A stretch of 56,099 bases of DNA from Armatimonadota bacterium (GCA_028871815.1 JAGWMJ010000014.1:1-56099); one strand, 5' to 3'. Numbered from the stretch's first letter, positions 9,241 through 14,272 are shown. Numbers and translations: made by a program. Notes: a model not told the origin generated them from the letters alone.

Positions 9241-9249
9241 ATTATATCA
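9241..9249 (-). promoter_or_regulatory. Extended -10 promoter
   Basis: The minus strand reads TGATATAAT, with consensus TATAAT at 9241-9246 and a TG one base upstream. It points toward the lipoprotein gene at 7522-9045. A TTGGAC lies further upstream, but at only 14 bp spacing. Confidence 0.5.
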
Positions 9250-9450
9250 TAGACCTATTAGTCCAATCACCATATATCCGGCGATGCGGCGCCGGTTTGC
9301 TCCACCGTCTTGCCGCGTCGTCTGCGCAGGACGTTGGCTTATGGGTCGGCGCGAGCACAACCCAACGATCGTCGCCGGCCGGCGCTCCCGCGGCAGCATC
9401 GAAGCGCTCCTTCGCAAGTCGAAAAACACAACTCGCAGCCGCCGACCGAG

Positions 9451-10884
9451 TCAAGCCGCCGACTGTTGGCAGGCATGGACCACAGATGGTGGCGGTTCGA
9501 TTATGCCGATCTCCTCAAGCCGATTCAGCTGCCACGGCATGTACTCGTCCGTGTACATCTGGTCAAGCTGAATCTCCGATATTGCTCCAAGGGCCTTACA
9601 CCTTAACAAGGACCAATCGCAGACCCGATGGCGCGCGGCCTTGCGCGTCTGCGTAACGAATGCAGACCGAAAACGGGCGCGGCTCGTTGCCGGCGACGAG
9701 AGGACGCCATCCGCCCAACTTGGCCGCAAGCCGGGGATTGCGTGGCGCAATACGCCAGCGGCATCCATGTCTGAAAAAACACCTCCTTCACCAAGCCATA
9801 GAAAGCGGCGATCCAGGTGGCGAAGGCGGCGCACGGTCTCTACGTCGCTGCACGCTCCGGCCAGCGCAGCGGCAAGGCGCTGATCGGCGTTGAAGGTCCG
9901 AAGCCGAATCCGCCAATCGAGCACGAAATCGAGGCGCTCAATATCCTCCTCAAGATCGGTCAGAATCCGTGCCCATAGGTTTACGGCGTCGTCCGCCCAC
10001 GCCGGCATTCGGCCCGTCTTGCACGCGGCGGATACATACTCCAGGTATCGCCACTGAATACCAATGGCTGTATCCGTCCCGCCATCGGACAGGGGCAGCT
10101 CCGCCTTGCAGCTTGCGTCCGCGGCTACAACACACATCGCGTCATAGTTGTTTGCCAATTCAATATGCGGCACACATTTCGGATTTACCTCGAACGCTGC
10201 CACTACCAGGGCCGTGGCAGCCGCGCGAAGAAACAGTGAGGTTTCGCTAGCCAGAGCGTCACCACAGGCAAGGTGCAGCCTTGCTGTCCCACGGATTCCC
10301 TCGGCACACTTAAAGGCGAACCTTGGTCCGGCGCCCAAGGCCTGCCGGTCCACTCTAGGTGAGAGGGTGAACCTTACGCTGCCTTCGTGCGGCTCGAGCC
10401 CACCAGAGCCGGCATAGATGACACGAGTCACCAGAAATGGAACGAAGTACCGCCACAGTTCGCTCGCCATGTCTGGCACAGAATAGTTTTCGTGACTGGC
10501 ACAGGTGACTAGCCGGTCGGAGTACGTGACACTGCCGCGCCAAACGCGAAGCTCGGCCAGTCGTGAGCTGTGCTCCACCGCACGCTGCGATGCGTCGAGG
10601 AATAGCAGATCGCCGGCCAACGCGAAACGGACCAACTCGTCGGGCGTTTCGCATTCCGGCGTCGCGTACTCCGGGTGACTGCCGATATCCAGGTAGGCAC
10701 AGCCTCCGTTCGGCAGGTACAGCCTTCCGTCATAGGACGCGACCACCTTCACCGTGTGCCGGACGGCCCTTAGGAGCGCGCCGGCGCCGTGGTGTACGGT
10801 GGCGCGCCCATTCGTGGCCAACGGCGCGATGAAGAACTCGGATTCCAGACCAATAAGTGACCGAACCGGACCCCTGCTCCGCAC
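9451..10884 (-). CDS. PafA/Dop (Pup ligase) family protein, paralogue C
   Basis: The 477-residue product matches the Pup-ligase/depupylase family along its whole length. The N-terminal glutamate motif is GLESEF (E14, E16). The catalytic-Asp segment is YLPNGGCAYLDIGSHPEYATPEC-like, with Asp66 at the position of the essential Asp of PafA and Dop. SHENY follows, then LVTR, SETSLFLRAAATALV, TSRARFR and a DW near the end. No Dop-type loop insertion precedes the catalytic segment, so it looks more like PafA than Dop. Known relatives use ATP to attach or remove Pup on lysines. The start is a GTG with AGGAGG eight bases upstream. It is the last gene of a three-paralogue array and the one with the best-preserved motifs. 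The actual substrate is unknown. Confidence 0.85.
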   Translation of the reverse strand: MRSRGPVRSLIGLESEFFIAPLATNGRATVHHGAGALLRAVRHTVKVVASYDGRLYLPNGGCAYLDIGSHPEYATPECETPDELVRFALAGDLLFLDASQRAVEHSSRLAELRVWRGSVTYSDRLVTCASHENYSVPDMASELWRYFVPFLVTRVIYAGSGGLEPHEGSVRFTLSPRVDRQALGAGPRFAFKCAEGIRGTARLHLACGDALASETSLFLRAAATALVVAAFEVNPKCVPHIELANNYDAMCVVAADASCKAELPLSDGGTDTAIGIQWRYLEYVSAACKTGRMPAWADDAVNLWARILTDLEEDIERLDFVLDWRIRLRTFNADQRLAAALAGACSDVETVRRLRHLDRRFLWLGEGGVFSDMDAAGVLRHAIPGLRPSWADGVLSSPATSRARFRSAFVTQTRKAARHRVCDWSLLRCKALGAISEIQLDQMYTDEYMPWQLNRLEEIGIIEPPPSVVHACQQSAA

Positions 10885-10914
10885 GAGACACCTCCTGCCG
10901 ACATCGCTTCCACC

Positions 10915-10928
10915 GTGAGCCGGCTCAC
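10915..10928. promoter_or_regulatory. Perfect 14-bp palindrome upstream of paralogue C
   Basis: GTGAGCCGGCTCAC is identical to its reverse complement. It lies 31-44 bases before the GTG of the 9451-10884 gene. A GATAAT hexamer sits just upstream on the minus strand. It could be an operator near a separate promoter for the third gene, or a small mRNA hairpin. Confidence 0.35.
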
Positions 10929-11055
10929 TGTATTATCGATAAGCAGCCGCACGACATTTCGTTGCGATGTCGCCGAAGAGTCGAGTCGTCCGACCCGGAC
11001 GCGCCACGGCGGCGTCGTACTCAACGCGAAGCGTAGATTCCATGCGGTAGAAGGT

Positions 11056-12468
11056 TTAGGGCCCGAATTGACTCGCGGCACTGATTGCAGCGGTGAATCC
11101 GCGCAGCCATCGAGGGCTGTACTCATCTCGAAATAGCTTCGGGATTCTCTTGCTCGTCTCCGGGCCAGCGAGAGCGTCCCAGCTCGCCTTGCACTCGAGT
11201 CCGGCGGCGGAATGTGCGCGTATCCACTCCGAGCGCAGCGACGCGCGCGTCGTAGCTGGGGCGCCGAGCACCACTTCATCCCACGTTGTTTGAATCGGAA
11301 CGCTGCGCACCACCTGCGCGCCGCTAGCATCCAGCTGTTGTTGAAAGCCGCTTTCTCCCACGGCGAGGAAGTGTGAATCGAATGTGCGGAGCAGGACGAC
11401 CGCTCGCCGGAACGTTCTTACGTGGGTGAACATGGTGTCGCGAACCTGTGCCAACGCGCGAAAACGAATCCGCCAGTCCAGTGTCGTGTCCAAACTGTGG
11501 GGGTCAGTCTCCAGTCGATCGATGGTCGTCTTCCAGAGCTGAAGTGCTTTCGCCGTCCATGACGGAAACTGAGCCGTTGCTGCCGCTCGTTCGACGAACT
11601 CGATGTACCGCCTCTGAATATCGAACGGAGAGATACTAAGGCCATTTTTCATTGGCAGCAGCGTGCGCAGCGTTGGGTCACGGTTCAACTGGTCCATTGT
11701 CTCCATTGGCCGCTCCAGATCGACCAGAGGTCGGCGGTCGCATAACACGTCGGCCGCCGCCAGCACGAGCGCCGTGGCGGCTACACGGAGAAACAGCGTA
11801 AACTCGCCCCCATGTGCATCTCCCGTCGTAAGGTGGACGCGATGCCGTGCGGAGCATAGGCTTTCACGATGGGACCACAATGTGGGCCGACGATCACTGA
11901 GGCTTGAGTAATTGATACAGGCCGCGCGGGGCGAGAGGACGAAATGTGGTCGTTCGCCGCTCCAGTCCATCGCGCCCGAACCTGTAAAGATGATGCGAGT
12001 GATCAAAAACGGCAGCAGCAGCGCCTCGTAGTCGGTCGCCGCATTCCGGGCGGTATAGTTTTCATGGCTGGATGCGACTACGAGGCCGTCATGGTAGGAG
12101 GCGAATCCGCGCCATACCGTTACCGATCTGTCGTTTGGGTAGCATTGCTTGATAGCTTCGGCCAGCAAGAGATCCCCGGCGCACGCGAACCGGACGAGCT
12201 CGTCGGGCGACTCGCACTCCGGTGTCGTGATTTCCAGGTGGTTGCCAATATCCTCGTAACAGCGGCCACCGTTAGGCAGGTAGAGGCAGAAGCCTTCAGC
12301 GGCGCAAGGGAGGTTGGATTCGATCCAGGTCAGCAGCTGGACGGTCAACTGCTGTGGCGTCTTCGCCAGCCTGTTTGAACCACCCTGGAGAAAATACTCC
12401 GTTTCCATTCCGAAAACCGTCCGAACGCCTGTGTTCTGCTGGCTTCGCAACAGCTGGCCGATGGTCAT
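11056..12468 (-). CDS. PafA/Dop (Pup ligase) family protein, paralogue B
   Basis: The 470-residue product carries GMETEYF (E22, E24), YLPNGGRCYEDIGNHLE (catalytic-position Asp73), TPECESPDELVRFACAGDLL, SHENYTAR, a conserved LFLRVAATALVLA helix and TRASLRSEW. It shares long near-identical motifs with paralogue C, so the two probably arose by tandem duplication. It differs in the HPEYAT motif, which here is HLEITT. The start is the ATG at 12466-12468, which forms an ATGA overlap with the stop of the upstream paralogue A and follows GAGGAA. The longer frame to 12531 is overlap. Expected chemistry is ATP-dependent isopeptide bond formation or its reversal; partner protein unknown. Confidence 0.85.
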   Translation of the reverse strand: MTIGQLLRSQQNTGVRTVFGMETEYFLQGGSNRLAKTPQQLTVQLLTWIESNLPCAAEGFCLYLPNGGRCYEDIGNHLEITTPECESPDELVRFACAGDLLLAEAIKQCYPNDRSVTVWRGFASYHDGLVVASSHENYTARNAATDYEALLLPFLITRIIFTGSGAMDWSGERPHFVLSPRAACINYSSLSDRRPTLWSHRESLCSARHRVHLTTGDAHGGEFTLFLRVAATALVLAAADVLCDRRPLVDLERPMETMDQLNRDPTLRTLLPMKNGLSISPFDIQRRYIEFVERAAATAQFPSWTAKALQLWKTTIDRLETDPHSLDTTLDWRIRFRALAQVRDTMFTHVRTFRRAVVLLRTFDSHFLAVGESGFQQQLDASGAQVVRSVPIQTTWDEVVLGAPATTRASLRSEWIRAHSAAGLECKASWDALAGPETSKRIPKLFRDEYSPRWLRGFTAAISAASQFGP

Positions 12469-14123
12469 TGCCGTTCCTCTGTAATAGTCGCCAATTGTGC
12501 CGCGTGCGACGGCGGATACCCGTCGCCGCAAGTGTACGCGGCTGGTGTTACGGTGCGCTTCGGGGTGCAGGGTGTGGCCGCCGGAGCCTGGCCCACGGAA
12601 ACTGACGCGGATCCGCTGGCTGCACAGTCGCGAACAAACTCGGCGAGTGTGGCCCGGCCGTTCGGTGCCGCCGGATCTGCGGGTTCCGGCATACCGATAC
12701 GGTAGCGGACATCGGCAAGCTGGCCAAGAGAGATCTGATGCCAGTCCACGAAGTTCACCGTTACGTGCGATGGGATGCGCGCCAGGATTCCGGCCCGCAC
12801 CGATGCGCGCGTATCGACTGGTGGATAAGCAACGAAACGCTCAATCTGCTCCTCCGTCACGATGTTGTGCGTGAGGCCGTTTGCCTCGCAGGCAAAGTAG
12901 AGCCCGACATCCGCATTCAGGTCGGCGTAGCGCCGGTCGAGCAGTTCAATCGCGGGTGAACGCCAGGTCAAACTGTGATCCGCCTCGAGCGCATGGCACA
13001 GCATGCGACGTTTGAGCAGCCAATCGAGGTGTGGTTCCAGTTCACGGAGTCGCCGGGCGCTGAGTTGTTCCAGAACCCACCGCCAGACGCCGAGAATCCG
13101 ATCCGCTCCCGGTACGGCATCACCGCACCTGCCCGATCGCACAAACCCTTCAGCCGCCTCAAGAAAGGCCACCTGCAGTTCTACAGCGCGGACATGCTGC
13201 CCACCAATCAGTTCCGCTGTTTGCCTCAGTTCAGGATCGTCGGAGTACGCCTGAAATGCACGCACAGGGTCGCGCAAAAGGCAGCCAACCTCAGGCGCGA
13301 CCTCGGCTTCGATCATCGCAACGATCAGCTGCTGCACGCCGGCCTTCAAATACGTGGCGGTTTGGCACATCGTACTGTCGAACGAGATACAGTGCAGGCG
13401 CGCTGCGGCGCTCGCCTCTCCGGCGAGCGTCTCGCGCCGTGAATTGACCAGCGGCCGCGCGAAGGTCGTCTGCTGCCCAATTAAGGTGGTTGTGAACTCG
13501 GCTCGCTGGGAGATTTGGTACGTCACGTCGGCATCAAACCAGGATGCTGCTTTGCCCTGGCCCGTGAACAGTACACTGCTGGCCTGGTAGCTCGCCAACC
13601 ACAACAAACAATCCAGTCGCCGGTCGAAGAGACGGTCCCATGCCGCGGCACTGAGCAGCACGTTCAGGTGCGCGCCCCAACTGGTTCCCAATCCATCCGA
13701 GGTATTGGCCTGCAACTCCAGTCGACAGCCAGACGGCGCAACGGCCTGAGCCCGCGCGCGCGCGGTATCGGCGATACGGTACATCGCATGGATCGCAGCC
13801 GTGAAGTCCAACGCGGAGCGGGTTTCGGGCGTGCAGACCTCCAGATGGTCGCAGTCAATGTAGATACAGCCACCATTCTGGAGCCATACGCGTCCATGGT
13901 CGTAATGCGAATCGGATGCATATCCTGCCGCGACCGAACGCGTACCGCACACGTGTTTTATAACCAGGCGGCAGGCATTGTGTGGCCACTGTGGCCATCC
14001 ATTGGCGTTCAGCATCGTATTGGCCAGCTCTACATCGGCGCCGACTATTTTCGGGAGTAGCTGCACATCCATTCTTGGTATCTTGAACTTCGGCGTGTTG
14101 GGCGGCGGCGGTTCGCGAACCAC
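12465..14123 (-). CDS. Divergent Dop/PafA-family protein, paralogue A, with extra C-terminal tail
   Basis: The 552-residue product resembles Dop/PafA, but key motifs have drifted. The GxExE motif is GADVEL (D30, E32). The catalytic segment is NGGCIYIDCDHLEVCTPE (Asp90 kept). SYGxHENY has become SWGAHLN. Downstream YQISQRAEF, ATYLKAG, TRASVRAG and VDWHQI align with the Dop order. The usual NTRDEPHAD is changed to NSRRETLAG. About 70 residues after the family core form a Ser/Ala/Thr/Pro-rich tail ending TITEERQ. It is the first gene of the array and is coupled to paralogue B. The start is uncertain: GTG at 14123 or ATG at 14072, neither with a strong ribosome site. Confidence 0.72.
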   Translation of the reverse strand: MVREPPPPNTPKFKIPRMDVQLLPKIVGADVELANTMLNANGWPQWPHNACRLVIKHVCGTRSVAAGYASDSHYDHGRVWLQNGGCIYIDCDHLEVCTPETRSALDFTAAIHAMYRIADTARARAQAVAPSGCRLELQANTSDGLGTSWGAHLNVLLSAAAWDRLFDRRLDCLLWLASYQASSVLFTGQGKAASWFDADVTYQISQRAEFTTTLIGQQTTFARPLVNSRRETLAGEASAAARLHCISFDSTMCQTATYLKAGVQQLIVAMIEAEVAPEVGCLLRDPVRAFQAYSDDPELRQTAELIGGQHVRAVELQVAFLEAAEGFVRSGRCGDAVPGADRILGVWRWVLEQLSARRLRELEPHLDWLLKRRMLCHALEADHSLTWRSPAIELLDRRYADLNADVGLYFACEANGLTHNIVTEEQIERFVAYPPVDTRASVRAGILARIPSHVTVNFVDWHQISLGQLADVRYRIGMPEPADPAAPNGRATLAEFVRDCAASGSASVSVGQAPAATPCTPKRTVTPAAYTCGDGYPPSHAAQLATITEERQ

Positions 14124-14272
14124 CGCTGGAGCGACAGGGACCGTGAGCCGGCCGCGCCGGCATGGCCGATGCGTTGACTCCGGTGCTGCCTTGCTCCTAT
14201 AATCATCGCAGCGTCGAGATCGTTGCGTAAGACGGGCCCCGGCCCGGTGTTTGGTTCTTCCGTATATTTATA

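Follow-up and report, generated by a model that had tools for sequence, protein, structure and literature searches.

Three adjacent PafA/Dop-family genes of an Armatimonadota bacterium: a probable reduced enzyme set of a second Pup-like system

The stretch of Armatimonadota DNA analysed here (56,099 nucleotides, the whole of contig C14; hereafter, the window) carries three adjacent minus-strand genes of the PafA/Dop family, which probably represent, in reduced form, the enzyme portion of a second Pup-like system with a hybrid operon as its ancestor, the modifier and partner genes not being found in this genome. The names Dop2, PafA2, Pup2, AAA2 and hybrid operon, as used below, were defined in this analysis. 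The features of the three-gene region (the trio) are as follows:

12465–14123, minus strand: P8, Dop2-clade protein of 552 aa with a GTG start at 14123; predicted deamidase/deconjugase
12465–12468, minus strand: ATGA shared by the stop codon of P8 and the start codon of P7, read from the sequence; translational coupling
11056–12468, minus strand: P7, PafA2-clade protein of 470 aa with an ATG start; predicted gamma-glutamyl ligase
10885–11055, minus strand: gap of 171 bp between P7 and P6, with a perfect 14-bp palindrome, GTGAGCCGGCTCAC, at 10915–10928
9451–10884, minus strand: P6, second PafA2-clade protein of 477 aa with a GTG start; predicted gamma-glutamyl ligase whose alpha-loop region is shortened

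Within the ORF spanning 11056–12531, the true start of P7 can be placed with near certainty at the ATG (12468) that overlaps the stop codon of P8, so that P7 comprises 470 rather than 491 aa. An alternative ATG start of P8 is found at 14072, and the GTG codon of P6 is preceded by an AGGAGG ribosome-binding site. All three genes are open frames of 470–552 codons uninterrupted by stops, and the identity between P7 and P6 is only 34–35%. No Pup-like frame was found in the gap separating these two genes (10885–11055).

The search with the Pup_ligase profile (PF03136; curated cut-off, 25 bits) yielded scores of 183.6 bits for P6 (9451–10884), 196.8 bits for the P7 ORF (11056–12531) and 265.8 bits for P8 (12465–14123), which bears out an earlier sequence-only reading of this DNA as three adjacent minus-strand PafA/Dop-family genes. 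A GS-like core with the catalytic Asp and HxE, as well as the residues of the C-terminal domain, are present in all three proteins: the catalytic Asp is retained as D90 in P8, D73 in P7 and D66 in P6, and so are the HxE and the C-terminal R-A..R. Out of the 37 universal residues, i.e., those conserved in canonical and second-type enzymes with at most one exception, P8 keeps 36, P7 32 and P6 34. The motifs listed in the same reading (GxExE, NGG...YxD, HxE, SHEN and [TS]RA..R) were confirmed, except that P8 has GADVE for GxExE and AHLN for SHEN, the former replacement being typical of nearly all members of the P8 clade. In both NCBIfam (208.5 vs 183.7 bits) and the PDB search (175.6 vs 89.1 bits), P8 scores higher against Dop than against PafA; its NCBIfam score lies below the Dop equivalog cut-off (TIGR03688; 492.3 bits), and P6 (153.6 bits) and P7 (139.8 bits) lie below that of PafA (TIGR03686; 551.3 bits).

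AlphaFold models of P8 (pLDDT, 74.5; pTM, 0.81) and P7 (pLDDT, 77.9; pTM, 0.83) superpose on PafA/Dop across nearly the full length, with Z-scores of 41.1 for P8 against Dop (4b0r) and of 38.9 and 40.5 for P7 against PafA (4bjr) and Dop (9cku), respectively. The earlier reading had named a misaligned active-site Asp and ATP residues in such models as a refutation; the superposition of P7 and P8, whose core active-site residues are retained in the alignment, speaks against this. In the canonical Dop/PafA pair, the shape of the alpha-loop distinguishes the hydrolase from the ligase (PMC7947786). The alignment revealed that the alpha-loop of P8 has the Dop form TT..RP(I/L).N (QQTTFARPLVN), and that this motif is altered in P7 and largely absent in P6; thus, the latter two proteins may no longer be able to ligate a Pup-type tag. 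As judged from the alignment, the region of P7 and P6 near the tag's end is changed, and the core nucleotide and catalytic residues are unchanged. The Dop-loop, which comprises the 40–65 residues before strand 2 (PMC8599861), is absent in P8, where 55 residues separate GxExE from NG, as compared with 83–85 for canonical Dop and 57 for PafA. P8 is most likely a deamidase/hydrolase, and P7 and P6 are most likely gamma-glutamyl ligases.

A maximum-likelihood tree of 39 sequences places canonical Dop, canonical PafA, Dop2 (14 rows; support, 100/100) and PafA2 (15 rows; 99/100) in one group each. The sister group of P8 consists of the Dop2 proteins from two Chthonomonadaceae genomes (100/99). P7 and P6 are the closest kin to each other (100/100), and their sister group is the PafA2 from these two genomes, a join that is supported at only 95/80. 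The trio sits apart from the host's own Dop and PafA; its end branches measure 1.27, 1.62 and 1.33, with P7 and P6 on long branches. This topology fits an inherited Dop2–PafA2 pair, followed by a duplication of PafA2 and then fast change. Matches of the Dop2 class, which score at least 549 bits vs at most 274 bits for the remaining genomes, were found in only five of the 291 Armatimonadota genomes (G000, G008, G013, G035 and G219).

The genome that harbors the window (3.68 Mb) is assembled in 22 contigs and is 98.3% complete, so that a piece may have been lost. The trio is of native base composition and is surrounded by ordinary chromosomal genes (rpsF, ssb, gyrB and sugar-transport genes), with a divergent UgpC/MalK-type transporter gene located upstream; no biosynthetic genes adjoining it were seen in the profile annotation of the neighbouring window genes. 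A mobile or viral origin was rejected based on the native composition and the lack of matches in viral contigs, and a defence system was rejected based on the lack of a PADLOC match for the trio. Plasmid collections contained only two records matching the trio, at 32–33%, which is the level of canonical Dop.

Relatives of the trio span at least six phyla. Dop2 loci were detected in Chthonomonadaceae, Verrucomicrobiota (including Pedosphaera), Hydrogenedentota, Planctomycetaceae, Acidobacteria and one genome labelled Proteobacteria, and further ones in Armatimonadota and Acidobacteriota. Profile searches of nine loci (L050–L055 and L058–L060) revealed genes for RING-like, ThiF/E1, E2-like, Ubl, JAB and Dop2 proteins, together with an Mpa-like ATPase (AAA2; nine out of nine) and PafA2, except for L060, where the contig ends; the E2, Ubl and RING labels are based on motifs, weak profile matches and position, strong matches being absent. 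The same layout is found in L038, L139, L140 and L141 as far as the contigs or stretches extend. The ATPase of the hybrid operon matches the proteasomal-ATPase OB domain (PF16450), and its PDB matches include proteasome-associated ATPases among many AAA proteins. Its JAB retains the conserved E, HxHP and S..D, and HP and Cys are invariant in the E2-like family. An acidobacterial locus (L056, 8172–13495) has the order ATPase–Dop2–Pup2–PafA2 with no ubiquitin-like genes in approximately 8 kb upstream, indicating that the Pup-like half can exist by itself.

The putative modifier of these loci, Pup2, is an ATG-started ORF located between Dop2 and PafA2 in all of the 12 loci that have both genes; three more Pup2 ORFs were identified (L139, L140 and L141). 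It is 63–68 codons long and ends with (R)QxGG[EQ] or a near variant (GAQ in L054, SGE in L059). Leave-one-out profiles found each Pup2 in its own locus at E-values from 1e-6 to 5e-23, the next-best frame in any locus having an E-value of 0.0028 or worse. Neither of the two Pup2 sequences tested has a match in Pfam or NCBIfam, and the Pup2 profile aligns with UBact over the last five residues only. Among the first 12 Pup2 sequences, eight end with Gln and four with Glu, a majority that would fit a Dop-type deamidase being required for the Gln forms.

In the hybrid-operon genomes outside Chthonomonadaceae, PF03136 revealed no PafA/Dop of canonical level (best score, at most 332 bits vs 420–530 bits for canonical proteins), and PF00227 had no match in G291, G292, G293 and G297 and one gene in each of the others, several of the genomes searched being incomplete. 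The copy number and, for the most part, the length of these single PF00227 genes are suggestive of HslV. Since neither a canonical PafA/Dop nor a PrcA/B pair was found, the hybrid system is probably not dependent on the PrcA/B proteasome. The operon is rare: 11 loci were found among the 84,980 species genomes scanned, which is a lower bound because the scan was pattern-limited. In Verrucomicrobiota, one of the 388 genomes has the hybrid type (the centre genome itself), and in Acidobacteriota, five of the 396 genomes have it by score, two of these being already known; a sixth, G692, is canonical-like.

Two further PafA2-type sequences were observed near hybrid operons. In L058 (14586–20202), a second PafA2-type ligase gene, which represents another PafA2 duplication, is located beside the operon on the opposite strand and is followed by ORFs of 315 aa, 777 aa and 296 aa (ATPase-like). 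In L051 (19606–20121, minus strand), a PafA2-like fragment of 171 aa (57 bits) lies approximately 5 kb downstream of the operon.

A standard system is also present in the genome under study. Contig C10 (L007, 10405–17031) contains the complete canonical run of ARC/Mpa, Dop, UBact, PrcB, PrcA and PafA, in which the modifier, UBact, has 62 aa, ends with SGE and matches PF20513 and NF033388. On the 56-kb contig, no proteasome or Mpa gene was found; the six-frame scan with the Pup2 profile yielded no Pup2-like frame (best score, 7.4 bits, i.e., noise), and the profile scan of the whole window revealed no E1, E2, JAB or Ubl genes beside the trio. No gene for a G[EQ]-ending modifier adjoins the trio in the window, UBact being located on C10. 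Thus, the earlier statement that no Pup, proteasome or ATPase is visible holds for the window but not for the genome. The proposal of a conjugation system with expanded enzymes, Pup/UBact-like or with another substrate, is supported in part: the trio is placed in the Dop2/PafA2 clades rather than among plain copies, and a standard UBact-proteasome locus is present on C10. That reading had itself regarded such a locus, with the trio as ordinary extra copies, as fatal to it; the locus exists, but according to the tree the trio are not ordinary extra copies.

Several candidates for a modifier in the window were rejected. Three frames ending with [GSA]G[EQ] are located away from the operon and have no match to the Pup2 profile. 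The TTG-started ORF of 70 residues downstream of P6 (9242–9454) shows no codon bias (GC by position, 0.61, 0.63 and 0.58) and no GE end. A fusion of Pup2 to the tail of P8 was dismissed, as this tail aligns with the tail of Chthonomonadaceae Dop2.

The search of the whole genome for the remaining parts of the hybrid operon revealed no AAA2 orthologue (the best match, 126 bits, is the canonical ARC), no Pup2 (best score, 13 bits; E-value, 0.58) and no orthologue of the hybrid-type E1 or JAB, for which matches were found only in a separate operon:

Contig C7 (L097), 9248–11926: operon of E1 (9248–10492), Ubl (10493–10753), E2-like and JAB genes

The Ubl of this operon has approximately 85 aa and ends with THG, and a Cys-rich reading frame is found upstream. 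Against the hybrid profiles, the C7 proteins score 147 (E1), 36 (JAB) and 42 bits (E2), whereas full-length hybrid genes score 405–571, 345–517 and 230–273 bits, respectively. The C7-type E1 is present at full length in about 40 of the 291 Armatimonadota genomes, most of which have no Dop2. Based on this distribution and the low scores, the C7 operon was rejected as the lost half of the hybrid operon and taken as an independent system.

The ancestral operon of the preferred reading would have encoded an Mpa-like ATPase, a Dop2 deamidase/deconjugase, a Pup2 of about 65 residues ending with GG[EQ] and a PafA2 ligase, joined in most relatives to a ubiquitin-like set of RING-like, E1, E2, Ubl and JAB proteins. 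In the window genome, Dop2 would have been kept as P8 and PafA2 duplicated to P7 and P6, with Pup2, AAA2 and the hybrid E1/JAB not found. The analysis establishes the family membership of the trio, its origin in the Pup2 system, its operon layout, the fold of P7 and P8 and the retention of core active-site residues; the activities are predictions. P7 and P6 would activate the gamma-carboxylate of a C-terminal Glu with ATP and join it to an amine; P8 would deamidate Gln-ended precursors or cleave isopeptide bonds; the tag on which they act would no longer be encoded beside them. The present tag may be the UBact of C10, the only recognised GE-ended modifier of the genome, although we rate this at somewhat below an even chance; the probability of a so far unrecognised Glu-ended peptide or small molecule as the substrate is only slightly lower. 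In a broader and tentative form, the proposal is that a rare operon of at least six phyla joins E1–E2–JAB–Ubl genes with Pup2, PafA2, Dop2 and an Mpa-like ATPase, mostly without detected PrcA/B, that Pup2 tagging would act in unfolding or signalling instead of proteasomal degradation, and that in the trio, once the modifier was lost, duplication of the ligase went along with a switch to a new tag.

The trio might instead have left protein tagging, in which case P7 and P6 would form gamma-glutamyl amides with a peptide or small molecule as the substrate, and P8 would hydrolyse or edit the product. This is a minority possibility, to which the missing modifier beside the trio and missing Pup2 in the genome, the changed alpha-loops and long branches of P7 and P6 all lend some weight, as does the fact that members of the carboxylate-amine ligase superfamily make glutathione-type products (PMC2588565). 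On the other hand, biosynthetic genes are absent beside the trio, the alpha-loop of P8 keeps the Dop form, and the P7 and P8 models match PafA/Dop with Z-scores of about 40, as compared with about 20 for glutamate-cysteine ligases. It is improbable that the trio is merely a functionless remnant of the hybrid operon undergoing decay: all of the other ancestral parts sought (AAA2, Pup2, E1 and JAB) are missing from the genome, the branches are long and some otherwise universal residues are altered, but the three frames are intact, with coupled starts and a good ribosome-binding site, and nearly all of the catalytic residues are retained despite the low identity between P7 and P6. As for ordinary extra copies of the host PafA and Dop, the complete UBact-proteasome locus on C10 does supply both possible parents, but the trio groups with the Dop2/PafA2 of other phyla, away from the host enzymes, and the bit scores (P8, 344.7 against the Dop2 of L038 vs 160 against the host Dop; P7, 245 against P6 vs 84.5 against the host PafA) make this explanation hardly tenable.

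Compared with the Pup/UBact-proteasome system, the trio has the same enzyme family, core active-site residues and, in the P7 and P8 models, fold, and the relatives likewise have a short G[EQ]-ended modifier between the Dop-type and PafA-type genes and an Mpa-like ATPase. However, the trio falls in separate clades and far under the NCBIfam PafA/Dop cut-offs, profile comparison sets the Pup2 of the relatives apart from UBact, and the hybrid operon lacks proteasome genes. The hybrid relatives resemble Bil/E1-E2-JAB-Ubl operons in having E1, E2-like, Ubl and JAB in a row, but the known operons of this kind, according to open-licence papers, contain no Pup, PafA or Dop, and the trio has no ubiquitin-like genes. 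PafA-family genes unlinked to proteasome genes are also represented by the membrane PafA variants of Plesiocystis and Rhodopirellula (PMC2588565), which differ in being accompanied by a Pup gene and in carrying a four-helix membrane insertion; no Pup gene lies next to P7 or P6, and their alignment shows no such insertion.

The trio appears to be new as a variant of the PafA/Dop kind. Neither PafA paralogue trios nor the hybrid operon with its own modifier family were found described in open-licence full-text papers, although an earlier mention is possible, notably in comparative genomics of bacterial ubiquitin-like systems. Pup and ubiquitin are regarded as unrelated solutions to one problem. 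With both gene sets united in a single conserved operon, along with a modifier family unrecognised by Pfam and NCBIfam, the role of a Pup-like tag without a proteasome becomes testable, as does the interplay of this tag with a ubiquitin-like one. The trio is a naturally occurring example of PafA-type ligases whose core active site was kept after the loss of the modifier gene.

In addition, very divergent PF03136 proteins outside the canonical and Dop2/PafA2 clades were observed in other Armatimonadota (L041, 8074–9414; L042, 7517–9004; L043, 8308–9807). In the window, the gap upstream of P8 contains a sigma-70-like promoter match (14174–14203, plus strand; TTGACT and TATAAT with a spacing of 18; 11/12), which is directed toward the UgpC-type gene.
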